A stretch of DNA of 35,067 nucleotides from Silvanigrellales bacterium (GCA_020247005.1 JADCJN010000285.1:1-35067); one strand, 5' to 3'. Positions 15,244 through 30,752 are shown, counted from the stretch's first letter. Notes: generated by a model not told the origin, from the letters alone. Program-made: numbers and translations.

Positions 15244-16596
15244 TTAGGGTCCGAGCGTCTTCAAGAACGCGATGAGCGCCTCTGATTCCTCATCAGCAAT
15301 AACGAACCCTCTTTTCACCCGTTCATCGGTGAAGGGATTCGCGCCCGTTTTTCCTAACGTTGCGCGCCCGCCAGCCGCGTAGTGGCTGACCACGGCGTTG
15401 AGGTCGGGAAGCGAACCATCATGACCGTAAGGCGCAGTGGCCGCCACGAATCGCAACGGCGGCGTCCGGAACCGCCCCATCCATTCGGGATGCCTCTTGA
15501 GCTCGTCGGCAGTCGCGAAACCGGTGTTCCCCAAAGGGTAGGCGCCGCGGCCGTCGACGTTGTACAGACCCGTGTTGTGGAATGCCTGAGCAGAGAAGGC
15601 CTTTCCATCACGTACATAACGAAACGAATCTGAAAGAAGGTAACCGGAGTGGCACTGCGCACAGGGGAGGTTCGTTCCCGAGGCGAGTGCGTCGAATCCG
15701 TAAAACAGGCGAAGTCCTCGTGTTTCGAGAGCATCAAAACGTTCATCTTCGCGGGCGCTACCCAGCAGAAAACGATCAAATTTCGTATCGAAGCGGATGA
15801 GCGATCGTTGGTAGGCTGCAAGCGCGGTCGTGATATAAGTGTAGTCTGCGCCAAGCGCATCGATTTGTTCGTCGGACTTTAGTCCGTATGCCGCCGAGAG
15901 TAGCGCGCGGTAGCCGCGATCGGCGCGCAGGATGGCCATGACGTCGGCCTCTTTGCCACGCAGGCCCATTTCCACGGGATCGTTTCCAAACAAAGGGATC
16001 TTGGCCTGCATCTCCAGAACCGGAAACACGCGGTTTGCCCAGGTCAAAGTGGAGTTGTAGGCGACGTTGAAGAGCGTCGGCGTGTTGCGCCGCGTAGACG
16101 CCCCATCCACGCCGCGCGAAAGTTTTTTTCCGTCGACGAACGCCCCGCGAGTCGGGTGGCAAGTTGCGCAACTGAAATCGCTCGCAAAGCCCTTCTCGTG
16201 GGAAAAGGACAGGCGCGTTTCAGAGAACAGGGACTGGCCGAGCGCGATGAGGGGCGCGGAAAGGAAAGGCGCTCTTGCCAGGCGGAAGTCGCCATTCGCC
16301 ACACCCAATGCACCGGTGGGCAACAAGGGCTCGGGATAGCCATTGGGAATCTTGTCGCGCAATACGGAAACACTCGCTTCATGCTCTTCGCGCTGCGAAG
16401 GAGTCAGCAGTTGCACATGGGCTTGCATGCGCTCCGTCTCCGCGAAGGACTCGATCACGCGCTGCGCGAGTGCCGCGTCGTCCGAGGCCCCTGCCCCTTG
16501 GTCGCCGCACCCCGTCGTGAACGCCAGGCTCGCTGCAAAGCAGAGAAAGAGGGGTGGGCCTGCGGAAACCCTGGCGCCGCGAAAAGTCAGCTTCAC
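15244..16596 (-). CDS. mbnH: MbnH-family di-heme oxidase (MauG/CcpA relative), pair A
   Basis: A 450-residue protein starting at GTG 16596; the start overlaps the stop of the upstream MbnP-like gene (GTGA). The lipobox is AFTTGC with Cys30. The first c heme is CATCH (143-147) and the second is CAQCH (312-316). Trp187 in NSTLTWANR lies between the hemes, where MauG and CcpA carry the electron-transfer Trp. Other family marks are RRNTPTLFNVAYN, AFHNTGLYNV, GRFRTPPLRFVA and APYGHDGSLPDL. Established for the family: MbnH from a methanobactin operon forms a high-valent di-heme state and oxidises a Trp of MbnP to kynurenine, giving MbnP a Cu(I) site. By coupling, this protein should act on the MbnP at 16593-17612. 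Confidence 0.9.
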   Translation of the reverse strand: MKLTFRGARVSAGPPLFLCFAASLAFTTGCGDQGAGASDDAALAQRVIESFAETERMQAHVQLLTPSQREEHEASVSVLRDKIPNGYPEPLLPTGALGVANGDFRLARAPFLSAPLIALGQSLFSETRLSFSHEKGFASDFSCATCHPTRGAFVDGKKLSRGVDGASTRRNTPTLFNVAYNSTLTWANRVFPVLEMQAKIPLFGNDPVEMGLRGKEADVMAILRADRGYRALLSAAYGLKSDEQIDALGADYTYITTALAAYQRSLIRFDTKFDRFLLGSAREDERFDALETRGLRLFYGFDALASGTNLPCAQCHSGYLLSDSFRYVRDGKAFSAQAFHNTGLYNVDGRGAYPLGNTGFATADELKRHPEWMGRFRTPPLRFVAATAPYGHDGSLPDLNAVVSHYAAGGRATLGKTGANPFTDERVKRGFVIADEESEALIAFLKTLGP

Positions 16597-17612
16597 GGGG
16601 CAACCGAGAACACCGTTTGTGCCGAAGGCGCGCCCGATCCTTTGACCTCAAACCCAAATGCCTTGAACGCATGCGCGCAGTTGACGTCACTTTCACTCGG
16701 CAACGACGTGTTGTTGTTGCAAGCGTTTTCGAGCCCACTTGCGAACGCGGCACCAGACGCCGGAAACATTTTCGCGAGATCCATGTTCACGGCAATCCGC
16801 GCCTCGCCGTTTGCACCGACGGACAGATTGATGGGCAACTCGAGCGTCACCTTTTTCTCGCGGGTCAGCGCGTTCAGAAGCTTCGAAGCCGACCCGCGCG
16901 AGGCACCCGTGTTGGTCTCTATTTGCAAATCGGCGGGGTAGTGTTCCCACATCCAACCCATGTCGCTTGGCGCCATGGCGGCAGGAATCGCGACGAGGCG
17001 CGCATCCATGGCAGGGTATGGCAGACCAAGCTGGAAGCGCAGCGTCTTGTACTGACCTGCATTCGCGGTGCCTGTGAGCGACGTTTTGACGGCTCTCGTC
17101 GCGTCGGATGAAGCGCACTCTGCGTCGAGGAAATTCAACAGCGCGATGGAGGTGCCTTTGCCGTCGGTGAACTGGAGGTCTTGGGGCTCGAGTGCCATGC
17201 GTGAAACCCGACCCGCTCCGTCCACCAAACTCAAGTTGCTCACGAAAAGCCGGACGTCCGTAAAAATCTGACCCACCGCGACCATCGCATCGCTTTTGTC
17301 AGAGCATGCCAGGTCGGCTGAACCAACCTTCGGCAGGAAGGAGATTGAGAGCGGCTGTTGCCCACTTTCCGTCAGGTCGGTGCGCTCTTGGTTTCCCGGC
17401 TTCGTTTTGTCGACGTTGCGCGCTGGCACCTGGCCTTCATCCTGACGTTTTGGCTCCGAAACCCTGGTGGCTTTTGCCGGCCCCTGCGCTGCTTCCGGAT
17501 CCTTTGCACCCTCGCCGCAGGCGCTCAGAGCGAACACACCCAAACCAACCATTCCCAGGGAGCTCATTTTCCGAAGAGTTCCGGGCGCTCCCGTTTTTAC
17601 CGACCGATTCAT
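16593..17612 (-). CDS. mbnP: MbnP-family putative copper-binding lipoprotein, pair A (divergent)
   Basis: A 339-residue protein. I chose ATG 17612 because GAGGAG lies about six bases upstream and a lipobox follows (VFALSAC, Cys32). A Lys/Glu/Pro-rich linker runs to about residue 87. The MbnP domain shows the four-cysteine pattern (Cys103, Cys166, Cys298, Cys312), the strand sequence QYKTLRFQLGLPYPAM, and Trp220/Trp222 (GWMWEHYPADLQ), which align with the WxWxxGYK region of the family. The HLGSTGC segment present in copy B is absent, so the metal site may differ. The partner oxidase gene overlaps its end. Copper binding after Trp-to-kynurenine oxidation is inferred from the family. Confidence 0.82.
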   Translation of the reverse strand: MNRSVKTGAPGTLRKMSSLGMVGLGVFALSACGEGAKDPEAAQGPAKATRVSEPKRQDEGQVPARNVDKTKPGNQERTDLTESGQQPLSISFLPKVGSADLACSDKSDAMVAVGQIFTDVRLFVSNLSLVDGAGRVSRMALEPQDLQFTDGKGTSIALLNFLDAECASSDATRAVKTSLTGTANAGQYKTLRFQLGLPYPAMDARLVAIPAAMAPSDMGWMWEHYPADLQIETNTGASRGSASKLLNALTREKKVTLELPINLSVGANGEARIAVNMDLAKMFPASGAAFASGLENACNNNTSLPSESDVNCAHAFKAFGFEVKGSGAPSAQTVFSVAP

Positions 17613-17675
17613 TCTGCTCTCCTCTGGCGACTGTTGAAAAACCCGAATAGCCTCTGAACGTCGGCACAACGACAT

Positions 17676-17694
17676 CCGAGAGCTCCCCTCTCGG
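17676..17694. promoter_or_regulatory. Inverted repeat between the divergent MbnP genes
   Basis: CCGAGAG (17676-17682) and CTCTCGG (17688-17694), spaced by five bases, lie in the 237-base region between the two MbnP/MbnH operons. A shared operator is possible; no known copper-regulator consensus is evident. Confidence 0.4.
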
Positions 17695-17849
17695 CGGCGA
17701 TACACCCAACCTCCCCACAGCCACAAGCAACCAAATGTTGCACCCCTTCACACCCCGAATCCGCTACCTTGCAGCGAGCTCCCTTTTGGCGGGCAATGAG
17801 GAGACTGGCGCTCGCGTTCGCGCCCTGCGATTGCAAAGGACCCCATGCA

Positions 17850-18755
17850 ATGAAACGACATTTGCGCCTCTCTCATTCTACAGCAGTTTTGGGCATTGTG
17901 GGCCTCACCCTGGGTTCCGCTTGCAGCGATTCCAGCGCAACGCAGGTCGACGAGCCTCGTCCTTTCCAGCTCGAGTTTGTTGCCACCGCCTCTGGCCAGC
18001 CCCTCCGTTGCGCGCAGACACTCTCGGGGCTCGGCTCGAAGAAAACGCAGGGCAAGCTCCTCGATTTTGCGTTCTACGTGCGAGGCCTCTCGTTCATTCG
18101 GGCCGATGGAAGTGAAGTCGCGGCGGAGCTCGACACGAATGCCTGGCAAAACCAGAACGTCGCCCTCCTCGATTTCCAAGACCTCTCGGACGAGTGCAAG
18201 GGTGCCGCCAAGCCCACAAACACCATCATCAAGGGCCAGGTGCCCACACAAGACGAGTTCTCGGCAGTCCGCTTCACGGTCGGCCTCCCGCCGGCGCTCA
18301 ACCATGCCAATCCTGCCAGTGCAAAGGCGCCCTTCAACGTGCAACGTCTCTTTTGGTCGTGGCAGAGCGGCTACAAGTCCATGCGTCTCGACATCGCTCC
18401 CAAGGGCGGCATCACGCGGCCCTCCGATCCTAGCTTTTCAGGTACGAATTATTTTTTCCATCTGGGCAGCACCGGGTGCACCGGAAATCCCGAGTCGGGA
18501 AGGCCCGTGAAGTGCTCGCGGACGAATCAGCCTGTTGTCACGTTATCGAATTTTGAGTTCCAGAAAAGCAAGGTTTCCATTGACGTGGCAACGTTGCTGG
18601 CAGACCTCGATTTGAACACCGACGCTGCCGACACGCCAGGCTGCATGTCGGATGTTACAGACACGGAATGCAAGGCATTCTTCAAGGCGATTGGACTCGA
18701 ATTCGAATCGGGTGCCGTATCACAGTCTCCCCAAGTCACGTTTAGGCTCTTATGA
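17850..18755 (+). CDS. mbnP: MbnP-family putative copper-binding lipoprotein, pair B
   Basis: A 301-residue protein. I chose ATG 17850 because AAAGGA lies about nine bases upstream and a lipobox follows (LTLGSAC, Cys25). This is a more canonical MbnP than copy A. It has FQLEFVATASGQPLRC, LLDFAFYVRGLSFI, VRFTVGLPPALNHANP, LFWSWQSGYKSMRLD (Trp169, Trp171), FFHLGSTGC (His204, Cys210) and the C-terminal pair in TPGCMSDVTDTECKAFFKAIGL. Besides Cys25 the mature domain has six Cys (54, 116, 210, 222, 265, 274). In the family, a Trp is converted to kynurenine by MbnH and the protein then binds Cu(I); Trp169 or Trp171 is the likely site here. The stop overlaps the mbnH start (ATGA). Confidence 0.92.
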   Translation: MKRHLRLSHSTAVLGIVGLTLGSACSDSSATQVDEPRPFQLEFVATASGQPLRCAQTLSGLGSKKTQGKLLDFAFYVRGLSFIRADGSEVAAELDTNAWQNQNVALLDFQDLSDECKGAAKPTNTIIKGQVPTQDEFSAVRFTVGLPPALNHANPASAKAPFNVQRLFWSWQSGYKSMRLDIAPKGGITRPSDPSFSGTNYFFHLGSTGCTGNPESGRPVKCSRTNQPVVTLSNFEFQKSKVSIDVATLLADLDLNTDAADTPGCMSDVTDTECKAFFKAIGLEFESGAVSQSPQVTFRLL

Positions 18756-19930
18756 AGATGACTTTGACCCAGCGCCTTCTCCGTTGCGTCGCCGCGGCTT
18801 TTCTTTGCGCGGGCCTTGCCGGCGCATGTTCGAACTCTTCGTCAACCGAAGTCATTTCCGCGTCCTCCGACGCAGGCGACTTCCTTTGGAACATTCCCGA
18901 CGGAATCCCGCTTCCTATCGTCCCATCGGAAAATCCGGTGAACGAGCTGAAATTCGAACTCGGCCGGCGCCTTTTCTACGACAAGCGCCTCTCTGGCAAC
19001 GGGAGCATGAGCTGCAGCGGATGCCATGAGCAGAGCCGGGCGTTCACTGATGGAAAGAAGGTCGCCCTAGGTTCGACCGGAGAAGCACATCCCCGGGGTT
19101 CACAGGCGCTCGTGAACGTTGCCTACAATTCCACACTGACGTGGGCGAACCCCACTCTTCTCTCACTCGAACGCCAGATCCTCGTGCCGCTTTTTGGCGA
19201 AACACCCGTGGAGCATGGACTCACCGATGCGAACTGGCCCGAGGCGAAACGCCAATTGGAAAAAGAGCCGGTGTACCAGCGGTTGTTTCCGAAAGCGTTC
19301 CCTGGCGAAGCTGCCTTTTTTTCGAAAGATCAGATTGTGAAGGCGCTCGCCACGTTTGTGCGCGGACTCAATTCTTTCGGCAGTCCCTACGATCGCTTTC
19401 TGGCAGGAGACGACACTGCGCTCGGAGAGAAGGAGACGCGTGGAAAGGCCCTTTTCTTCGGCGAGCGCCTCGAGTGCTTTCACTGCCATGGTGGTTACAA
19501 TTTTTCCGACTCCACTGCCGATCGCACAATGACCTTCATCAACCGCCCGTTTCATAACACGGGACTCTTCAACATCGCGGCGTCGGGCGCGTACCCCGCG
19601 CCAAATCGGGGCGTGTTCGAAATCACGGGCACACCATCGGACATGGGCCGCTTCCGTGCACCCACGTTGAGGAACATCTCAAAAACCTCGCCCTACATGC
19701 ACGACGGCAGCGTGGCCTCTCTTGGCGAAGTGGTGGAGTTCTATGCCGCTGGAGGCCGTAACATCGCTTCGGGCCCCGAGCAGGGGGACGGTCGGAAAAA
19801 TCCTTACAAAGACGGATTCGTGACGGGGTTCTCGTTGTTGCCCAGCGAAAAGCAAGACCTTATTGCGTTTCTTGAAAGCCTGACCGACGAAGGGTTCCTT
19901 CGAAATCCCCGATTCTCAAATCCCTGGTGA
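18752..19930 (+). CDS. mbnH: MbnH-family di-heme oxidase, pair B
   Basis: A 392-residue protein translationally coupled to the upstream MbnP (ATGA). The lipobox is AGLAGAC with Cys26. The c-heme motifs are CSGCH (88-92) and CFHCH (242-246). Trp131 in NSTLTWANP lies between them as in MauG-like enzymes. Other marks are LKFELGRRLFYDKRLS, RPFHNTGLFNI, DMGRFRAPTLRNI and SPYMHDGSVASL. The expected role is H2O2- or oxidant-driven oxidation of a Trp in the paired MbnP in the periplasm. An outer-membrane barrel gene follows after seven bases, so the unit is likely a three-gene operon. Confidence 0.92.
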   Translation: MKMTLTQRLLRCVAAAFLCAGLAGACSNSSSTEVISASSDAGDFLWNIPDGIPLPIVPSENPVNELKFELGRRLFYDKRLSGNGSMSCSGCHEQSRAFTDGKKVALGSTGEAHPRGSQALVNVAYNSTLTWANPTLLSLERQILVPLFGETPVEHGLTDANWPEAKRQLEKEPVYQRLFPKAFPGEAAFFSKDQIVKALATFVRGLNSFGSPYDRFLAGDDTALGEKETRGKALFFGERLECFHCHGGYNFSDSTADRTMTFINRPFHNTGLFNIAASGAYPAPNRGVFEITGTPSDMGRFRAPTLRNISKTSPYMHDGSVASLGEVVEFYAAGGRNIASGPEQGDGRKNPYKDGFVTGFSLLPSEKQDLIAFLESLTDEGFLRNPRFSNPW

Positions 19931-21161: not shown

Positions 21162-21629
21162 TCAAGGCACTTGGACGGGGATTTCGACGACGTCTTCTTG
21201 CCCATCCACGAGCAGTCGGACGTTCAGTTCCCACGGACCAGACATCGAGAAACCGAGCTGACTGACAGTAAGGACGTTTTCCTTCGCCTCGGCAATGGGC
21301 CGGTCCCCTGGCGCGCCGTGTCCGTGGATTTTCATGTAAGGGAAGACCTCGCGCACTGCAATTGAGGTCGGTTTCGTTCCATTGGGGAGCACAAGGGTCA
21401 CTTGAAGGCTATTGAGGCTTTCCTCACCAAAGGTGACACGCGGACCTGCGAACCATGCTGTGATTGCGGCTCGAAACACTCCCTTCTTCGACGTCTGTCC
21501 TAGAGTCGAATCCGGCGCGCTCGTCGCACGAGGTGCAGGCACCTCACCAACTGAAGTTTGCTTGCTGCAAGCCAAAACAAGGGAACAGGCAAGCAGGACG
21601 GAAAGTCGCCTCAAGGATCTTCGGCGCAT
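21162..21629 (-). CDS. YtkA/FixH-like periplasmic lipoprotein
   Basis: A 155-residue protein. GGGAG lies five bases before the ATG, which overlaps the end of the MNIO partner gene by 19 bases. The lipobox is CSLVLAC (Cys21). The domain has the single immunoglobulin-like fold pattern of YtkA/FixH proteins: LNSLQVTLVLPNGTKP, PYMKIHGHGAPGDRPIAE and QLGFSMSGPWELNVRLLVDG. The Met/His motif MKIHGHG resembles the copper-binding MxxMxHG motif of related proteins. It is the last gene of the MNIO cassette and ends only 15 bases from the convergent barrel gene. A periplasmic copper-handling role is inferred. Confidence 0.75.
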   Translation of the reverse strand: MRRRSLRRLSVLLACSLVLACSKQTSVGEVPAPRATSAPDSTLGQTSKKGVFRAAITAWFAGPRVTFGEESLNSLQVTLVLPNGTKPTSIAVREVFPYMKIHGHGAPGDRPIAEAKENVLTVSQLGFSMSGPWELNVRLLVDGQEDVVEIPVQVP

Positions 21630-22465
21630 GGAATCTCCCGTCGGGCACAGCCATCGTCACTGCCAGGGCGCTGCCAGAGTCCGAGGGAAAGACCTGTCGA
21701 GAGCCATTCGCCCAAACTTCCCGCCAACTCATCTTCCGAAACCATTGTCAGCAGAACGTCGAGGGCATCTCCTAGGGAACACTCTCGCAGCGCGGCGTAA
21801 AATGACGCTTGCGCAGGCGACAGGGGAATCACCATCGTACTCGTGCCCTTGCGACAAAGGAGCCAAGGTGTTGCTGCGCGCGTTTCACGGTCTGAATCCA
21901 ACTCCGAGCAAGATGCAGGCTCATGTCGCACGGAGCAATCCATGTCCTCCTTCCGGGCATTTATGAGGACCCAGCTTGGACGCGGCTCGAAAACAACGTT
22001 TTCGAGTGCACTGTCTTCCAACAGGCCATCGGGTAGCGATTCAAGGGCGTCAACTTCGGGCGCGCACCTCACTGTTGCGAAAGCGAAGTCGACTTGAAGC
22101 GTCTCGCGCAAGCGCGTTTCTCCGCGGGGCGAGAGCGCCGCAAGTGGGGCGCTTGAGTTCGAAATGGCATGTGAAATGGTGCGCCAGAGATCTTCAAGGT
22201 TGTGCGCATCGAGGCTGAGTTCCCCCACGATCCGATGCACGAGGAGGTTGACAATTGTAGGGCCGTGCACTGCGGTCGTGAGCGGAAGATCTGCTTGCGC
22301 CGTATTGAAAAGACGGAACCAATACTGTTTCCTGTATTGCGAAACTTGCTCTCGGCCCGACGGAACGATTAAGGCGCGGCCAACCAAGGGGAGCGGTGTT
22401 GTGAGCGCCCCAAGGAATGCGTCCTCGAAGGTTCGCAGCCATTCAGGCGGGGAAACGAGCGTCAT
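21611..22465 (-). CDS. MNIO partner-like protein (BufC/DUF2063-like)
   Basis: A 284-residue soluble protein. I chose ATG 22465 because AAGGA lies six bases upstream; it overlaps the MNIO gene end by 23 bases. An ATG two codons earlier (22471) is the alternative. The N-terminal 90 residues (LRTFEDAFLGALTTP, then SQYRKQYWFRLFNTAQADLPLT, then IVNLLVHRIVGE) have the helix pattern of DUF2063-type partners. Those proteins present precursor peptides to MNIO enzymes. The C-terminal part, including SPAQASFYAALRECSLGDAL, resembles a winged-helix or RiPP-recognition end as seen in several partners, but I cannot prove homology. Five Cys residues lie in the C-terminal half. Position and overlap make partner function likely. 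Confidence 0.7.
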   Translation of the reverse strand: MTLVSPPEWLRTFEDAFLGALTTPLPLVGRALIVPSGREQVSQYRKQYWFRLFNTAQADLPLTTAVHGPTIVNLLVHRIVGELSLDAHNLEDLWRTISHAISNSSAPLAALSPRGETRLRETLQVDFAFATVRCAPEVDALESLPDGLLEDSALENVVFEPRPSWVLINARKEDMDCSVRHEPASCSELDSDRETRAATPWLLCRKGTSTMVIPLSPAQASFYAALRECSLGDALDVLLTMVSEDELAGSLGEWLSTGLSLGLWQRPGSDDGCARREIPCAEDP

Positions 22466-23291
22466 CGGCATTCCTTCGCCCTTTGAGCACTTGTGCGACC
22501 AAAGATTCCCATGATGGAATCTCGGCATCCCATTCAAGCAAAAGCGGATAGGAGCCAAAGTGTTTCTGGGCTTGACGATGCAGAGCCCAGACCCCGTCGC
22601 AGACGGCACGGTTGTGGGTGTCGACCAGCAGCCCGCCTTCTCCTGTTTCGTGGCCCGCTACGTGGGCCTGAAGCAAACGTTTCGGTTCCAAGTGAACGAA
22701 ATAGCACGCTGGATCGAATCCATTGTTCCACGAAGAAACGAACACATTGTTGATGTCGAGCAGATAATGACAGCTCGCCTCGCCCACTACGGCTGCGAAA
22801 AACGCAGCCTCTGTCATGTCACTTTCTGGAAACGTGACATAAGACGAGACGTTCTCAAGTCCAAATGGCCGCTCTAGAATGTCCTGCACCAGGGCTGCTC
22901 TTCGGGCCGCGTAGTGCACAAGATCATGGCGGAAGGGCGTGGGAAGGAGGTCGTGGGAAGCGTGGCGTGCAGTCCGAGTCCAGCACAGATGGTCGGTTAC
23001 GAAAGGGGCATCAACGCGGTCTGCCAGGGCCTTGAGTTTCGTGAGATAGGTGCGATCAAGAGGCTCGGTGCCAAGGATATTCAGGCCGACTGTGTGCACG
23101 ACCGCCGGGAGATGTTCTCTTATGGCGTCAAGATGCGCGTTGGGTAACGGCTGCCCGAACAGGTAATTGTCGCCAAGAATCTCGACATAATCGATGCCGG
23201 CATCCCCTTTCTCCAAGGCAGCGCGGAGTTCGAGGACGTTCTCGGGTCGCAGCGCTATTCCTAGAGCATCACGCTTCAACGCACGCGGCAA
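22443..23291 (-). CDS. MNIO family (DUF692) multinuclear nonheme iron oxidase
   Basis: A 282-residue TIM-barrel enzyme starting at TTG 23291, which has GGGAGGA six bases upstream. All expected iron-ligand positions of the MbnB/BufB/TglH superfamily are visible: His66 (VHTVGLNI), Asp100-His101 (VTDHLCW), Glu146-Asn147 (LENVSSYV), Asp179 and Asn181 (LLDINNVFVSS), His210 (QAHVAGH), Asp224-His226 (DTHNRAV) and Glu253 with Asp255 (LLLEWDAEIP). Members use two or three irons and O2 to convert Cys residues of peptide substrates, for example to oxazolone/thioamide pairs in methanobactin or thiooxazoles in bufferins. Upstream by 45 bases is a Cys-rich cytochrome lipoprotein and downstream is a partner-like protein, so the substrate is probably that upstream product. 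Enzyme family is sure; chemistry is not. Confidence 0.95.
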   Translation of the reverse strand: MPRALKRDALGIALRPENVLELRAALEKGDAGIDYVEILGDNYLFGQPLPNAHLDAIREHLPAVVHTVGLNILGTEPLDRTYLTKLKALADRVDAPFVTDHLCWTRTARHASHDLLPTPFRHDLVHYAARRAALVQDILERPFGLENVSSYVTFPESDMTEAAFFAAVVGEASCHYLLDINNVFVSSWNNGFDPACYFVHLEPKRLLQAHVAGHETGEGGLLVDTHNRAVCDGVWALHRQAQKHFGSYPLLLEWDAEIPSWESLVAQVLKGRRNADDARFPA

Positions 23292-23336
23292 GACCGATCC
23301 TCCCTCGACGGAGGAACTTTGCGCAGAGCCCCAGTG

Positions 23337-24125
23337 TCACTTGGGATCCGTCCACGGCTTGACCTTTACGGGCAGGGTGCGGATGTGGGCCACGACGCGC
23401 TCGACCTCGGCACGCGAATAGAAACCATGGTAACCAGGCATATTCGCGTATGCCACCCCTGTCGCTTTGCGTCCTTTCAGTCCGAACGCGATGGCAGACA
23501 TGAGTGCCTCGTCCGATTTCTTCGCGAACTCGGTTTCCTTCGCCTTTACATTCGACCCTGGAGGCACGGGCAATACGAAGGCGTCCTTGCCATCGCCATG
23601 GCAGAACGCGCACTGAACCTCGGAGCCAACCTTTTCTTCCCCTTTCTTGCCTTGCAGTATCTCGGCACCCTGAAGGCCCGCGTCGGCAGGCAAAACCACG
23701 CAAGACATGCCGGCACAGGTGTTCATCGCACGGCACGTATGGTCTATTCTCGTGCCATAGCTGAACGAGAAGCCCTTGCAGCTATTGACCCCGGCGCAGC
23801 TCGCATGAATTTCCACGATGCCGGCCGCCGTCTTGCACTCTTGCGTGAACGACTTCAGGGTCACACCCTCGAGCTTTTCAGTCTTTTTGGTGATCTTCGG
23901 CTTCACAGCGGGCACTTCGACAATCCGCTCCTTTGTGATGACTTCAGGGTCGGCGGACTCGCTTCCGCAGGCAGCCAACAGCCCTCCCGCAACAAGAGCG
24001 CTCCCAGAAAGAGCCATCCGCGCCACCGACAAGAGCCGGCGCTTGTTGACTTCGACCTGACGTGGCTGGTTTGAGCAAGGCTGGATGGGCTCGGTGGGGT
24101 GGGTAGGCTCGGCCGGAAGTTCCAT
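23337..24125 (-). CDS. Cys-rich domain fused to c-type cytochrome, lipoprotein; candidate MNIO substrate
   Basis: A 262-residue protein. I chose ATG 24125 because AGGAG lies nine bases upstream. After a 27-residue N-region comes a twin-arginine-like signal (NKRRLLSVARMALSG) ending in the lipobox GGLLAAC (Cys53). A Lys/Glu/Val-rich linker follows. Residues 97-142 form a six-Cys domain (Cys97, 110, 116, 131, 137, 142) with two copies of C-x3-N-x-C-x-G (SCAGVNSCKG and TCRAMNTCAG). This pattern is seen in Cys-rich precursors next to DUF692 enzymes (BufA-like). A class I cytochrome domain follows, with CAFCH (172-176) and a Met in YANMPGYH. It is the first gene of the MNIO cassette and lies 102 bases after the RegA-like gene. 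A copper- or redox-active RiPP-cytochrome hybrid is inferred. Confidence 0.88.
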   Translation of the reverse strand: MELPAEPTHPTEPIQPCSNQPRQVEVNKRRLLSVARMALSGSALVAGGLLAACGSESADPEVITKERIVEVPAVKPKITKKTEKLEGVTLKSFTQECKTAAGIVEIHASCAGVNSCKGFSFSYGTRIDHTCRAMNTCAGMSCVVLPADAGLQGAEILQGKKGEEKVGSEVQCAFCHGDGKDAFVLPVPPGSNVKAKETEFAKKSDEALMSAIAFGLKGRKATGVAYANMPGYHGFYSRAEVERVVAHIRTLPVKVKPWTDPK

Positions 24126-24227: not shown

Positions 24228-24845
24228 CTAGTTCGTGTGGTCGGCCGCGTCGTCTTCCAAATCGTCGCCGGCCTCCATTCCCACAAAAGTTGCAGCAGCA
24301 GGATACTTGCGGAGTTTTCGCTGAAGACTTTGGCGGTGTAAGCCAAGTCGCCTTGCTGCCTGCGTAATATTCCAATCGCATTGAGCAAGCACAAACTCGA
24401 TAAGCTCGTACTCGTATTGCGCAAGGCGTGATGACTCCCCATCTGTCTTCGACAGGTCGAAGCCGTCTGCCACGCCCTCAATCCACAGGGCTTGTTCAAT
24501 GAGTTCGATGTTCGAGGGCTTGAGAATGCAGTTCACAGCGCCGCCCCTCATCGACTCCACAGTTGTCGCGGTGGTGGGATAGCCCGTGAGCATCACGGCT
24601 CGACAGGAACTGTTTGCCGACAAAAGCGGTTTGAGCAAGCGAAAGCCGAGCTCACCTCTCACGCGAAGATCTAAAATAGCAAAATCGAATGCACACCCAC
24701 TTTCTATGGCGCACTTGGCGTTTTCGAGAGTGGAAGCTTCGAAGACAGTATAGCCGCGCTCTTTGAATTCGAGCACGAGTGTTTGCCGGAAGGCATCGTC
24801 ATCGTCCACAATAAGAAGACTTCGACCTCGAGATTTTTCATTCAT
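24228..24845 (-). CDS. regA: RegA/ActR/PrrA-like redox response regulator
   Basis: A 205-residue response regulator. I chose ATG 24845, which overlaps the sensor kinase stop by eight bases. The receiver has the acidic pocket LLIVDDDD, phosphoacceptor Asp59 (FAILDLRVRGELG), Thr87 (MLTGYPTTAT) and Lys109 (ILKPSN). The C-terminus is a Fis-type helix-turn-helix (CDWNITQAARRLGLHRQSLQRKLRKY), which matches the RegA family ending closely. RegA orthologues lack an AAA+ domain and act at sigma-70 promoters to control respiration, cytochromes and related genes. The next genes downstream on the same strand are the cytochrome/MNIO cassette, and cytochrome bd-like genes are divergent nearby; both are natural targets. 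Confidence 0.9.
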   Translation of the reverse strand: MNEKSRGRSLLIVDDDDAFRQTLVLEFKERGYTVFEASTLENAKCAIESGCAFDFAILDLRVRGELGFRLLKPLLSANSSCRAVMLTGYPTTATTVESMRGGAVNCILKPSNIELIEQALWIEGVADGFDLSKTDGESSRLAQYEYELIEFVLAQCDWNITQAARRLGLHRQSLQRKLRKYPAAATFVGMEAGDDLEDDAADHTN

Positions 24846-26115
24846 CAGTGCGGCCCTCATTGGCGATGGGCAACTCAAGTTGAACACAGGACCCTCGTTC
24901 AGAAGCATCTTCAACTCTGAGTGACCCACCCATGGCATGGCAGAGGGTGTGTGCATGGTAAAGCCCCAATCCGCTTCCCTCCGCGTGAGTGGAAAAGAAA
25001 GGCGAGCCTAAATTCTCTCGAATGAGCGCAGGGAAACCCGGCCCTTCATCTTTGACGCGGAGAGTCACGATTCCCTCGCGAGGGCACTCGAGCAGGACTG
25101 TTATAGATTCCCCTCGCGTCGCTGCATTGGCCCTCCAGGCGTTGTCGAGCAAGTCGAGAAGCATCTGCGTGAACGATACGAGTGGCGCGCGCACGGACAC
25201 CCCCGACGTAAGGTCTACGATCTCAACCTTGGACTTGTCGGACTCCCAGCCGCGCACAGTCTGGGCAACGAGCGGCGAAAGCGCGTGAGTGCCGAAGTCG
25301 GCCTCTTCCGGAGCCATCTGGCGTTGAAGCAACGTGCGCAAGGAGCGCTCGCAGCGGGCACTGGCCTCGATAGCTTCCTTGAGGTCGGCGTTCCCCTCCA
25401 GCAAATCGTTGCGGGCGAGCCTGGCAAGGCGCAGGCGCAGGGTCGCGAGCGGCGTGGCGAACTCATGTGAAAAACCGGTGGCAATGACTCCAAACGCGCG
25501 CAGCCTGTCGATGCGGTGCCGGCTTTCGCGGACGCGCTCGAGTTCTTTTTTCCGGGCATCGATTTGATGCGCAATCCAAGCCAGGAGCCCGACAAGAAAG
25601 AGCAACAAAACAGCTTGCGCAGGATAGAGTTGCGCGCTTGGCGTCGGCTGTGAATAGAGCGCCTGAGGCACAACTGGATCCCAGTGCAGCACGACAAGTG
25701 CCCACGCGAGAAACAGAACGTAATATGTGAGCCAGGCACCGCGGAGCAGCAATGCGCCAAGTGCGCCGTGAAAAAGAAGCAGCGGCGCAAATGGATTCCA
25801 CGGACCACCGGTGAGCATCAGAAGTAACGTCAAAGACAGCGCATCGAAGGCGAGTTGGAAGAACAGAAATCCTTTCGTTGCGTCTATGCGCCTACGGGCA
25901 AGAACACCTCGACTGACGACGGTGAACAGCGCCATGAAGGCGATGATCGCCATAAAGGACAAGAGGCGATCGCCTGGAAGCCAACCGAGGCGAAGCGCGG
26001 GCCAAACCGCGAGAGCCTGGCCGCCAAGTGCCCACCACCGAAGTCTGAGGACGAGGTCGACTCCCACTGCGTCGTCATTGGACGTCATGGATGCCCTTTT
26101 TTCAGGTGACGTCAT
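24838..26115 (-). CDS. regB: RegB/PrrB-like redox-sensing histidine kinase
   Basis: A 425-residue membrane kinase. Its ATG begins one base after the LRR gene stop, so translation is coupled. About six membrane helices (residues 25-185) include GGPWNPF (103-109), the GGxxNPF quinone-sensing motif specific to RegB/PrrB/ActS. The H-box is GFSHEFATPLATLRLRLARL with His217. The ATPase domain has LLDLLDNAWRANA (N box), VKDEGPGFP (G1) and GSGLGLYHAHTL (G2). RegB orthologues respond to quinone pool redox state and to oxygen. It is followed by the cognate regulator gene with overlap. I do not see the redox-active Cys at its usual place after the H-box. Confidence 0.9.
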   Translation of the reverse strand: MTSPEKRASMTSNDDAVGVDLVLRLRWWALGGQALAVWPALRLGWLPGDRLLSFMAIIAFMALFTVVSRGVLARRRIDATKGFLFFQLAFDALSLTLLLMLTGGPWNPFAPLLLFHGALGALLLRGAWLTYYVLFLAWALVVLHWDPVVPQALYSQPTPSAQLYPAQAVLLLFLVGLLAWIAHQIDARKKELERVRESRHRIDRLRAFGVIATGFSHEFATPLATLRLRLARLARNDLLEGNADLKEAIEASARCERSLRTLLQRQMAPEEADFGTHALSPLVAQTVRGWESDKSKVEIVDLTSGVSVRAPLVSFTQMLLDLLDNAWRANAATRGESITVLLECPREGIVTLRVKDEGPGFPALIRENLGSPFFSTHAEGSGLGLYHAHTLCHAMGGSLRVEDASERGSCVQLELPIANEGRTDE

Positions 26116-27330: not shown

Positions 27331-27876
27331 ATGAAAATCCCAAAGTCTCATTTCCTTCGCGTCATGGTTTCTGCCGCCTGTTGTCTTCCAACATCGAATT
27401 CGGCCTTTGCGCACGTTGTCATAACAAGCCCGAGCGCAAAGGCGGGAGGTTACGCGAAGCTCACAATCGGCATTGGCCATGGCTGCGACGGTTCCCCGAC
27501 AAAGGCCATCACAGTGACGATTCCTATAGAAATTATAGCCGCGAAACCTCAAATCCATTGGAACTGGAGCTCGACGACGAAATTGGAAAAGCTCGAAAGG
27601 CCCTACACGAGCCATGGAACGACAATCAGCGAACGCGTTGCGGTCGTGACATTCGTGGCCAAGGAGCCGGTCGCCGACGACCGCTACGATGAACTCGGAC
27701 TGAGCGTGCGTGTCGCACAAGACGCAAAAGGTGACCTCGTGCTTCCCGTGAAGCAGGAATGTGAAAAGGGCACGATCGAATGGAAAGACGGGAAAGAGGC
27801 GAAATCGGAGTATCCAGCTCCGAAACTGCGTGTGCAGAGGAACCGAACGGAACAAGGAAACGCTCACTCCCACTAG
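27331..27876 (+). CDS. ycnI: YcnI-like (DUF1775) periplasmic copper protein
   Basis: A 181-residue protein; GGAG lies eight bases before the ATG. The signal peptide is cut after NSAFA (27), so mature residue 1 is His28 (HVVITSP). This N-terminal His is the copper ligand in the monohistidine brace described for YcnI. The DUF1775 body has GGYAKLTIGIGHGCDGSPTKAI, TVTIPIEI, KPQIHWNWSST, and AVVTFVAKEPVADDRYDELGL. No C-terminal membrane anchor is present; the tail is polar and ends HSH. It lies upstream of the cytochrome bd-like genes with a 162-base gap. A role delivering or buffering copper in the periplasm is expected. Confidence 0.9.
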   Translation: MKIPKSHFLRVMVSAACCLPTSNSAFAHVVITSPSAKAGGYAKLTIGIGHGCDGSPTKAITVTIPIEIIAAKPQIHWNWSSTTKLEKLERPYTSHGTTISERVAVVTFVAKEPVADDRYDELGLSVRVAQDAKGDLVLPVKQECEKGTIEWKDGKEAKSEYPAPKLRVQRNRTEQGNAHSH

Positions 27877-28038: not shown

Positions 28039-29445
28039 ATGGATTTCCCTCTCTTCCACATGGACTTCTTCAACAATCGCATTCTGATTGCCGGTGTCGC
28101 CATCCTTCACGTCCTCATCAATCATGCCCTGGCCGTGGGGGGCATCCCGCTCGTGGTCTGGTTGGAGCGAAAAGGCATCGTAACAGGTGACGAGCGCTGG
28201 GATGCCTTGGCGCGCAAGATCATGTTTACGTTCTTCGTTGTCACCACGACCGTGGGAGCCATGTCGGGCGTCGGCATCTGGTTCGCAGCCTCTCTGGTCA
28301 ACCCGGCAGCCATTGGCAGCCTCTTGCGAGTGTTCTTTTGGGCCTGGTTCGTAGAGTGGTTCATCTTCGTCACGGAAGTCATTCTCATCCTCATTTACAT
28401 GCTGACTTGGAAGAGCTGGACGGGTGAAAAGAAGAAGGCTCACTTCCGTTTTGGTGTGTTCCTTTCCGTGGCCTCGTGGATCACCATGGCGCTCATTGTG
28501 AGCATCCTTGCGTTCATGATGGATTCGGGCAGCTGGCTGACCGATCGAAGCCTCTTTTCCGGAATGCTCAATCCTCTTTATCTCCCCCAGCTGGCTTTCC
28601 GCACGCCTTTGGCCTTGGCGATGGGAGGAGCTGCAGCACTTTGCCTCGTTCCCTTCTTCTGCAAAGCCGATCAGGAGTTCCGAGCCAAAGCGGCAAGAGC
28701 CTGCGCGATCTGGACTTTGCTGTGGCTGATTCCCTGCATTGCAGGAAGTGTTTGGTACCACTCACGCATCCCGGCCTCTATGGTCGGCAACATGGCTGTT
28801 GCTCTCACGACGCAAGCCTTCACGGACTGGTATTCGCTGTTGAACTGGGTTCTCATCGGTGCCGTCGCAACAGTCCTAGCGCTCTGTTTCTTTACTGTCC
28901 TCGTGCCAAGGCGAATTCCCAGTGCTGCGAACTTCGTTCCTTTGCTCGCCCTGTGCGCCCTTCTCGGGCTCTTTGAAAGGGTTCGAGAATTCATTCGAAA
29001 GCCCTACGCCATCGCCAACTATCTCTACTCTAATGGTTATCGCTCTGAAGACACGAGTCTTCTGCAGCGAGACGGTGTTCTAGTCCACTCAGCCTTCGCA
29101 CGTGTGCGCAAGGTTACAAAAGAGAACACGCTTGAGGCCGGACGCGAAGTGTTCCTTCTGACATGCACGCGGTGCCATACCACCACGGGAGTCAATGGCA
29201 TTGTTGACGTCGTGGAACGCATGTACGGCACAAAGGCGACACGAGCCGCATGGGATGCGCAGGCTCTTTCCAACTACATCGCCAGTATGCACAACGCACG
29301 ATCCTTCATGCCGCCCTTCCCGGGGTCTGAAGCCGAACGCGATGCGCTGTCAGCCTACATTATCAGCCTTCGAAACTCGCCTCGGACTCTTGAAGGCGCG
29401 CAATCGGCGGGCGTAGGCCCCTTGGCACCAAAGGAGTTTCCATGA
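28039..29445 (+). CDS. CydA-like membrane subunit with C-terminal c-type heme domain (subunit 1)
   Basis: A 468-residue protein; GAGGA lies eight bases before the ATG. About nine membrane helices (residues 12-318) resemble cytochrome bd subunit I. Helix 1 has His24 and His29 (LHVLINHALAVGG); helix 3 has two glutamates (VEWFIFVTE, Glu106 and Glu113), comparable to Glu99/Glu107 of CydA. The segment where CydA has its b558 His reads LPQLAFRTPLAL, without His. The cytoplasmic Q-loop and GRQPW motif are missing. After FERVREFIRKPY comes a cytochrome c domain with CTRCH (376-380) and a Met in SFMPPFPG. Heme-c-bearing groups are known in the cytochrome bd superfamily. It overlaps the next, related gene by ATGA. 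The electron donor may be quinol or a c-type cytochrome. Confidence 0.82.
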   Translation: MDFPLFHMDFFNNRILIAGVAILHVLINHALAVGGIPLVVWLERKGIVTGDERWDALARKIMFTFFVVTTTVGAMSGVGIWFAASLVNPAAIGSLLRVFFWAWFVEWFIFVTEVILILIYMLTWKSWTGEKKKAHFRFGVFLSVASWITMALIVSILAFMMDSGSWLTDRSLFSGMLNPLYLPQLAFRTPLALAMGGAAALCLVPFFCKADQEFRAKAARACAIWTLLWLIPCIAGSVWYHSRIPASMVGNMAVALTTQAFTDWYSLLNWVLIGAVATVLALCFFTVLVPRRIPSAANFVPLLALCALLGLFERVREFIRKPYAIANYLYSNGYRSEDTSLLQRDGVLVHSAFARVRKVTKENTLEAGREVFLLTCTRCHTTTGVNGIVDVVERMYGTKATRAAWDAQALSNYIASMHNARSFMPPFPGSEAERDALSAYIISLRNSPRTLEGAQSAGVGPLAPKEFP

Positions 29446-30752
29446 CGACATTCCCGTTCAAAGACATCCCGCTGCCCTTGCCGGCTCCTGAGCTGTTCCT
29501 TCAAGGTGCGCTCGTCTTGGCTTTCGCTGCGCATATCCTCTTCGTCAACCTCGTCGTCGGCGGCAGCCTCCTCACGCTCTTCTTTCAGATTCGCGGACTC
29601 AAAGATCCCAAGTTCGACGAGCTGGCTCACGCCATCGCCAACACCATCACCGTGAACAAGAGTCTCGCGGTTGTTATGGGCGTGGCTCCGCTCTTGCTTC
29701 TCAACGTCCTTTATACGGTGTTTATTTACTCGTCTAACTCTCTCACCGGGTTCGCTTGGTTCCTCATCGTTCCTCTCGTGACGGCAGCGTTCGTGCTCAC
29801 CTACGCCCACAAATACAGCTGGGATGCCATGGCCGACAACAAACCGATTCACATTGCCCTCGGCGGCATGGCCACCATCCTGTTCCTCATCATTCCCCTC
29901 GTGTTCCTCACGAATACCAACCTCATGCTCTTCCCTGACAGTTGGTCGCGCGTGCAGGGCTTTTTTTCGGCTCTTGTGATGCCCAACGTCCTCCCTCGTT
30001 ACCTCCACTTCCTCGCCGCTTCCCTCTCAGTGACGGCGCTGTTTATGGTGGCCTACTCAGGCCGCTCGTCCGACATCCTCGGCTGGTTGCAGCGCCACAG
30101 GCTCCATAAAGGCAGCCTCAAGCGTGACTTTTACGGCATCGTATTCGGGGTAACGCTGGTGCAGTTCCTGGCGGGCCCCTTGGTGCTTGTCACGTTGCCT
30201 TCTCAAGGTCTGTCGTTCTTCATGCTTGCTTTCATTCTCTCGGGAGCCGCGTTAGCGGTCCTCCTCGCCCTGCTCATCTGGAAGGAGATGAAGTCGCCAG
30301 ACAGCGAGGTGGGGAACCGGTTCCCCAGCATCCTCGTGGTCATGACGACAATCGTTGCTTGCATGGTTTTAGGACGACACTTCTATCGCGAAACCGCCCT
30401 TCAGGCGCACAAAATGGAGATGAAAACACGCACAGCCGCGTTTGTCGCAGCCTCCGAGCAGGCTGCCTACGATGCGGCAAATGAGGCGCTGGCACCTAAA
30501 GATCCCCTGGTGGCCGGCAAGAGCGCCTTCGATGCGAACTGCGCCGGGTGTCATCAGCTCGACAAGAAACTGGTGGGTCCGTCGGTTCTGGAAATCGCGT
30601 CCATTTACGCATCCAACGAATCGGGAATCATCGAGTGGTCCAAAGCCCCGGGCAAGAAACGTGCGGACTCCCCGCAAATGCCGGCCATGTCTCATGTGAA
30701 AGACAAGGACCTGGCCGCCATCGCGACGTGGATGCTTGCTCAGAAAAAGTGA
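29442..30752 (+). CDS. CydA-like membrane subunit with C-terminal c-type heme domain (subunit 2)
   Basis: A 436-residue protein translationally coupled to subunit 1. Helix 1 contains AAHILFVNLVVGGSLLTLF (His31), matching the b595 His helix of CydA. A later segment reads NVLPRYLHFLAAS (His189), the place of the b558 His ligand that subunit 1 lacks. About eight membrane helices are followed by a coiled Ala/Glu linker (325-350) and a class I cytochrome c domain with CAGCH (367-371) and Met in QMPAMSHV. Two unequal CydA-like chains suggest a heterodimeric CydAA'-style enzyme with two c hemes and no CydB. Function as O2 reductase is inferred from the superfamily. A Zur-like box starts 21 bases after its stop. 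Confidence 0.82.
   Translation: MTTFPFKDIPLPLPAPELFLQGALVLAFAAHILFVNLVVGGSLLTLFFQIRGLKDPKFDELAHAIANTITVNKSLAVVMGVAPLLLLNVLYTVFIYSSNSLTGFAWFLIVPLVTAAFVLTYAHKYSWDAMADNKPIHIALGGMATILFLIIPLVFLTNTNLMLFPDSWSRVQGFFSALVMPNVLPRYLHFLAASLSVTALFMVAYSGRSSDILGWLQRHRLHKGSLKRDFYGIVFGVTLVQFLAGPLVLVTLPSQGLSFFMLAFILSGAALAVLLALLIWKEMKSPDSEVGNRFPSILVVMTTIVACMVLGRHFYRETALQAHKMEMKTRTAAFVAASEQAAYDAANEALAPKDPLVAGKSAFDANCAGCHQLDKKLVGPSVLEIASIYASNESGIIEWSKAPGKKRADSPQMPAMSHVKDKDLAAIATWMLAQKK

Follow-up and report, generated by a model that had tools for sequence, protein, structure and literature searches.

An MNIO cassette, conserved in two bacterial groups, whose apparent substrate joins a rearranged Buf2-like cysteine domain to a cytochrome c

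The window analyzed here is a 35,067-nucleotide stretch of DNA from a Silvanigrellales bacterium (GCA_020247005.1, JADCJN010000285.1:1-35067). Within it lies a cassette that encodes a fusion lipoprotein (P0001), an MNIO enzyme (P0002), a partner protein (P0003), and a small YtkA-like lipoprotein (P0004) (Table 1). P0001 is 262 residues long and joins a six-Cys domain, with the motifs C110-AGV-N-S-C116-K-G118 and C131-RAM-N-T-C137-A-G139, to a cytochrome c domain with the heme motif C172-AF-C175-H176. The latter scores 25.3 bits against Pfam PF00034 (Cytochrom_C; cut-off, 21.3) and, with its CxxCH and distal Met, has the features of a class I c-type cytochrome. The sole family match on the Cys domain is to the NCBIfam BufA2 model NF050166 (E 2.4e-4); at 21.2 bits it falls well short of the cut-off of 60, as do the relatives of P0001. 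A structure model of the fusion protein reached a pLDDT of 83.7; in a fold search, its only matches were weak and cytochrome c6-like, and the Cys domain had none.

P0002 scores 270.9 bits against PF05114 (cut-off, 25; Pfam). Its best match among the MNIO models is the BufB equivalog NF050167, at 259.8 bits and thus under the cut-off of 310. The enzyme keeps H66, D100, H101, E146, N147, D179, N182, H210, H214, D224, H226, E253, and D255, all at positions that are also conserved in the solved structures of MNIOs (3bww, TglH, and MbnB). The gene for P0003 overlaps that of P0002 by 23 nt. P0003 itself has no Pfam match and does not reach the PF09836 (DUF2063) cut-off of 27.2; its homologues, matched at E 1e-6 to 1e-16, score 51 to 57 bits to DUF2063. 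A sequence-only reading of this DNA had described an MNIO with intact ligand residues, an overlapping partner-like gene, and a lipoprotein with six Cys, two C-x3-N-x-C-x-G motifs (residues 110-118 and 131-139), and a CAFCH heme domain. All of these elements were recovered, the partner being of the DUF2063 type via its homologues and the lipoprotein carrying the lipobox LAAC53.

Table 1. Features of the cassette and of the adjoining regulatory genes (window coordinates)
Feature	Position	Strand	Remarks
P0004, small YtkA-like lipoprotein by homology	21162..21629	-	Overlaps partner gene P0003
P0003, partner protein (DUF2063/PME-type, by homology)	21611..22465	-	
P0002, MNIO enzyme (DUF692/PF05114), BufB-like	22443..23291	-	TTG start, GGAGGA upstream
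P0001, lipoprotein with rearranged Buf2-like six-Cys domain and cytochrome c, apparent MNIO substrate	23337..24125	-	AGGAG 5' of ATG
P0001, signal peptide and lipobox, residues 1-53	23967..24125	-	LAAC53
P0001, six-Cys bufferin-like domain, residues 88-145	23691..23864	-	C97, C110, C116, C131, C137, C142
P0001, class I cytochrome c domain, residues 171-251	23373..23615	-	CAFCH 172-176, candidate axial Met229
RegA/ActR/PrrA-like response regulator	24228..24845	-	ORF to 24956, likely start 24845
RegB/PrrB-like histidine kinase	24838..26115	-	GGPWNPF motif (GGxxNPF)

The full fusion was found in 6 of 58 genomes of the same class (Oligoflexia). Two strict peptide patterns run over 84,980 species genomes returned 11 loci, of the Oligoflexia type and from Myxococcota, and a profile search of 318 genomes from one Myxococcota class found the domain in 27 of them. 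In total, 21 fusion loci (Oligoflexia and Myxococcota) and 12 domain-only loci (Myxococcota) were read. Of the 21 fusion loci, 19 also contain an MNIO; in the two exceptions, just 9 kb and 4.4 kb were read. The prevailing order is fusion, MNIO, partner on a single strand, so that the window and most fusion loci share the BufA2-type order of precursor, MNIO, and partner; MNIO and partner precede the fusion gene in L016 and L078. The heme-less loci have an MNIO in 10 of 12 cases; in nine of these, MNIO and partner form a convergent unit of one or two genes. A clear cytochrome gene was not seen immediately next to these loci. Because the domain also exists without heme, the heme is best regarded as an add-on to it. 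All six Cys are invariant across 32 aligned sequences, and the 33rd, from L095, has lost one of them. Among the fusions, CxxCH is present in 20 of 21 (L079 has CxxxCH) and the candidate Met ligand is kept in all 21. No relatives were found in viral contigs or in plasmids. The number of fusion loci, the MNIO near 19 of the 21, and the six Cys invariant in 32 rows show that the cassette is not a chance arrangement.

Several further features of these loci were recorded. The L095 sequence with the lost Cys (CGGVVSGRG) is a heme-less relative adjoining an intact MNIO (L095:6380-6796, minus strand). In L082-L086 and L088, which come from large myxobacterial genomes, an EF-hand-like loop (e.g., DADGDGQIS) immediately precedes the first domain Cys. 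In L011 (5764-6123, plus strand), a gene upstream of the fusion cassette encodes a small protein that combines a twin-Arg signal with an iron-sulfur-like arrangement of Cys; it looks HiPIP-like by eye and has no Pfam match. A large DUF2271 gene stands directly 5' of the fusion gene at L016:4241-6925 (+) and L077:463-2835 (+).

The rearranged Cys domain occurs once per fusion locus. Canonical short Buf2 was absent from all 20 fusion loci scanned, and among short ORFs near the MNIO, 32 had at least four Cys and none was a conserved separate precursor. Antisense ORF matches were also considered as precursors and were rejected as shadows of conserved genes. The sequence-only reading had named the Cys-domain/cytochrome protein as the only candidate substrate, had proposed a genome search for MNIO genes beside proteins with both Cys repeats and CxxCH, and had pointed to a conserved short precursor in relatives as the result that would speak against it. 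The search yielded the fusion loci above, no such precursor emerged from the 20 scanned, and P0001 stands as the sole conserved Cys-rich candidate. Its architecture, its conservation, and its linkage to the enzyme are established by these loci.

In line with this, the MNIOs of the fusion and heme-less loci group in a single clade (100/100) that excludes every canonical Buf2 MNIO, in a tree whose bootstrap is not fully settled and in which P0002 sits on a long branch. A second MNIO of the same genome, beside a canonical Buf2, falls in another part of the tree. The separate clade, together with a second enzyme that serves canonical Buf2, indicates that the fusion protein has a dedicated MNIO. 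That the MNIO instead has a different precursor as its substrate, e.g., the canonical Buf2 found on another contig of the same genome, and that P0001 is an unmodified disulfide-rich heme lipoprotein, is very unlikely. Such a reading could draw on the lack of a strong bufferin-type signal core in P0001; however, that Buf2 has its own MNIO-partner fusion of a different MNIO clade, and the fusion gene is near an MNIO in nearly all fusion loci. The substrate assignment is strong overall, and the Cys domain of P0001 is very probably what P0002 modifies. The second MNIO-partner gene, on contig C131, encodes 605 residues with an Ala-Ser repeat linker (L002:496-2313, minus strand) and is overlapped by the canonical Buf2 gene (L002:2310-2663, minus strand).

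A Lys after the modified Cys of BufA2 has been proposed to contact an Asp beside the MNIO catalytic Asp (BufA2B2; PMC13097082). Among the pairs examined, nine substrates have a Lys after the second motif Cys, and eight of these pair with an MNIO that has Asp after the D255 equivalent; where substrates lack that Lys, the Asp is found in 4 of 19 MNIOs (one-sided hypergeometric P of ~0.001, worked by hand from the counts, for sequences that are not independent). The proposed rule fits the MNIO-substrate pairs of the relatives. P0001 and P0002 are the one exception among the nine, with Lys in P0001 and Ala in P0002 where MNIOs of the Cys-Lys type have Asp.

Judged by its motifs, the Cys domain of P0001 is a rearranged relative of the BufA2 (Buf2) bufferins (NF050166; Buf_6/12Cys, Antoine et al. 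2025). Both have six conserved Cys and two CxGxNxCxG motifs, invariant here in the aligned rows, and both are exported precursors encoded next to an MNIO and a partner; some Buf2 proteins are lipoproteins as well. In a single profile comparison with canonical Buf2, both CxGxNxCxG motifs aligned (Prob 86, E 5e-6). The order of the elements differs: canonical Buf2 of the same class reads [CxGxNxCKGxGxC][CxGxNxCKG][CxxxGG], whereas the fusion family reads [CxxxGG][CxGxNxCKG][CxxxNxCxGxSC], and so departs from the canonical Cys order. CxxxGG is therefore N-terminal in P0001 and C-terminal in canonical Buf2, and in P0001 the lone extra Cys comes after the second motif; P0001 further differs in being a lipoprotein with a C-terminal cytochrome c and in scoring under the BufA2 cut-off. 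When the displaced CxxxGG element was compared with its canonical counterpart, where just 9 columns align, the match was beaten by 1 of 200 column shuffles, and by 0 of 200 with the Cys column fixed. A permuted alignment of the whole domain to canonical Buf2 brought no gain. In the models, a helix with its Cys followed by a strand lies at opposite ends of the domain in the fusion and the canonical protein, the canonical model being weak (pLDDT 63). These comparisons are no more than suggestive of a circular permutation of canonical Buf2, which is plausible.

The usual route of cytochrome c is unfolded export by Sec, with heme added outside the cytoplasm. The P0001 signal had been read as Tat-like, a reading that is not supported: P0001 has a twin Arg, but this is not conserved in relatives, which carry Sec/SPII lipoprotein signals with a lipobox. 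Tat export of P0001 was rejected on this conservation, and the normal route of cytochrome c gives it no support either. Furthermore, the lipobox Cys is invariant in sets A1/A3, and the genome contains Cytochrom_C_asm genes (Ccm-type). A signal core like LLxAAxxGL, common to canonical bufferins, was found in 12 of 14 family lipoproteins, rows that are related to one another, and in none of 24 other lipoprotein-like signals of these loci; it was not found in P0001 itself. Preliminary results given in the text of Antoine et al. indicate that recognition by the bufferin MNIO complex involves the signal peptide (PMC12452194). For MNIO lipoproteins, cytoplasmic modification before export is the published scheme, and one modified lipoprotein has been produced in E. 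coli (PMC12636315).

The surroundings of the cassette lean toward copper. Besides the YtkA-like lipoprotein, the window holds two MbnP/MbnH pairs back to back (15244-16596 and 16593-17726 on the minus strand; 17769-18755 and 18752-19930 on the plus strand), one MbnP scoring over its family cut-off and the other divergent (69.6 bits against 140), and a DUF1775 (YcnI-type) gene at 27331-27876 (+). After the latter come two genes with C-terminal cytochrome c domains (28039-30752, plus strand). These neighboring copper genes are not conserved, except for the YtkA-like lipoprotein, which is in or near the cassette in some relatives' loci. MbnP/MbnH genes are cassette neighbors only in the window and in L077 and hence are not part of the conserved cassette.

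Directly upstream of the cassette (26115-24228), as part of the same-strand run, is a RegB/RegA-like pair whose best matches are NF033792 for the kinase (133.6 bits, under the cut-off of 350) and NF033791 for the response regulator (105.4 bits, under the cut-off of 250). A like pair stands beside the cassette in L012, L015, L017, and L078. This pair raises a serious rival, namely, that the product is a copper chaperone for respiration whose modified Cys domain supplies copper to a cuproprotein such as a heme-copper oxidase, with the cytochrome domain as a docking or electron-carrier module and RegB/RegA-like control tying the system to the respiratory redox state. In Bacillus subtilis, both the YtkA-like family and Sco have been implicated in the assembly of CuA (PMC13344008), and cytochrome genes lie downstream within the window. 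However, no oxidase genes were seen among the neighbors examined, the bufferins characterized to date confer protection from excess copper, and heme-less relatives exist; we consider the chaperone role unlikely, if worth keeping in mind.

Less probable still is that the MNIO modifies the Cys domain but yields a product for another metal or stress, or makes a modification other than a thiooxazole. Other metals are suggested by MerC-bufferin fusions and by gold-induced bufferin operons, both described in the text of Antoine et al. (PMC12452194), and the Cys order of the P0001 domain is new. In contrast, the PME1-type MNIOs studied so far make Cu-binding thiooxazoles (PMC13097082), and the genomic context leans toward copper.

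The family chemistry and the copper theme of the window lead us to read P0001 as a lipid-anchored copper-binding protein that carries a heme nearby. MNIO-PME1 clusters broadly install Cu-binding 5-thiooxazoles on Cys, with a change of -4 Da each and a band at 305 nm (PMC13097082). By analogy, P0002 with P0003 would act in the cytoplasm and oxidize core Cys of the six-Cys domain. The likeliest targets are C110, C116, C131, and C137, each of which would become a 5-thiooxazole (-4 Da), and C97 and C142 might then pair in an outer disulfide. The precursor would then be exported by Sec, lipidated at C53, and supplied with heme by the Ccm system, and the mature lipoprotein would bind copper via its modified Cys beside the c-type heme. 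Copper chelation could couple to electron transfer, with copper held in one redox state or Cu(I) oxidized. Of these steps, a thiooxazole-type change is likely, copper binding by the modified protein only slightly less so, and a redox action of the heme on that copper is conceivable at somewhat under even confidence. For the whole explanation, a cassette that makes a lipid-anchored, MNIO-modified metalloprotein with copper near heme, we lean modestly in favor. Counting against it are the divergence of P0001 and P0002 (below-cut-off scores, long branch) and a Cys order unlike that of canonical Buf2. Heme is dispensable in 12 related loci, which argues that copper-heme coupling is not needed for basic function. 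It is doubtful, in our estimate, that the bufferin-type domain, with its permuted Cys order and dedicated MNIO clade, forms a copper-thiooxazole site in electronic contact with the covalent heme of the same lipid-anchored protein.

Periplasmic copper proteins tied to c-type heme proteins have a precedent in MbnP/MbnH, in which the heme enzyme, encoded on its own, modifies MbnP and MNIO chemistry is absent. The sequence-only reading had held that a modified-Cys copper site next to a heme would be a new kind of RiPP or electron carrier, a claim that is weakened by published work. The text of Antoine et al. 2025 (PMC12452194) already reports Buf1|Cytochrom_C fusions (WP_017136223.1), lipoprotein Buf2s, and protein-sized MNIO substrates; the Buf1 fusion also joins a bufferin domain to a cytochrome c domain and differs in being of the DUF2282/Buf1 type with four Cys. 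DybA and NedA are MNIO-made lipoproteins that share the SPII signal; unlike P0001, they are short precursors without a cytochrome domain (PMC12636315). Captophorins (the thiooxazole metallophores fontiphorin, oxazolin, and bufferin 1; PMC13097082) likewise combine an MNIO and a PME-type partner with Cys-rich precursors, but their studied products are peptides or repeat proteins without heme, and the modification of P0001 is a prediction. On the side of novelty, the text of Antoine et al. names neither a Buf2|Cytochrom_C fusion, of which an unlisted case could lie outside the main text, nor a rearranged Cys order. As described there, the first pass of that survey took signal-peptide precursors of <200 residues, so most P0001-type proteins would be missed (PMC12452194). 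What appears new is the Buf2-like rearranged Cys order, the fixed cytochrome c fusion in two groups, the MNIO clade of its own, and the heme-less relatives.

The products of MNIOs make up some of the largest classes of RiPPs, and most views of them are of peptides that soak up metals. The cassette extends the known bufferin family and is conserved across two bacterial groups, and a family that combines a modified-Cys domain with heme suggests a redox or electron-transfer use besides chelation. With only three genes and natural heme-less relatives as controls, the system makes such a use directly testable; if the proposal is true, it would represent a genetically encoded copper-heme redox unit.
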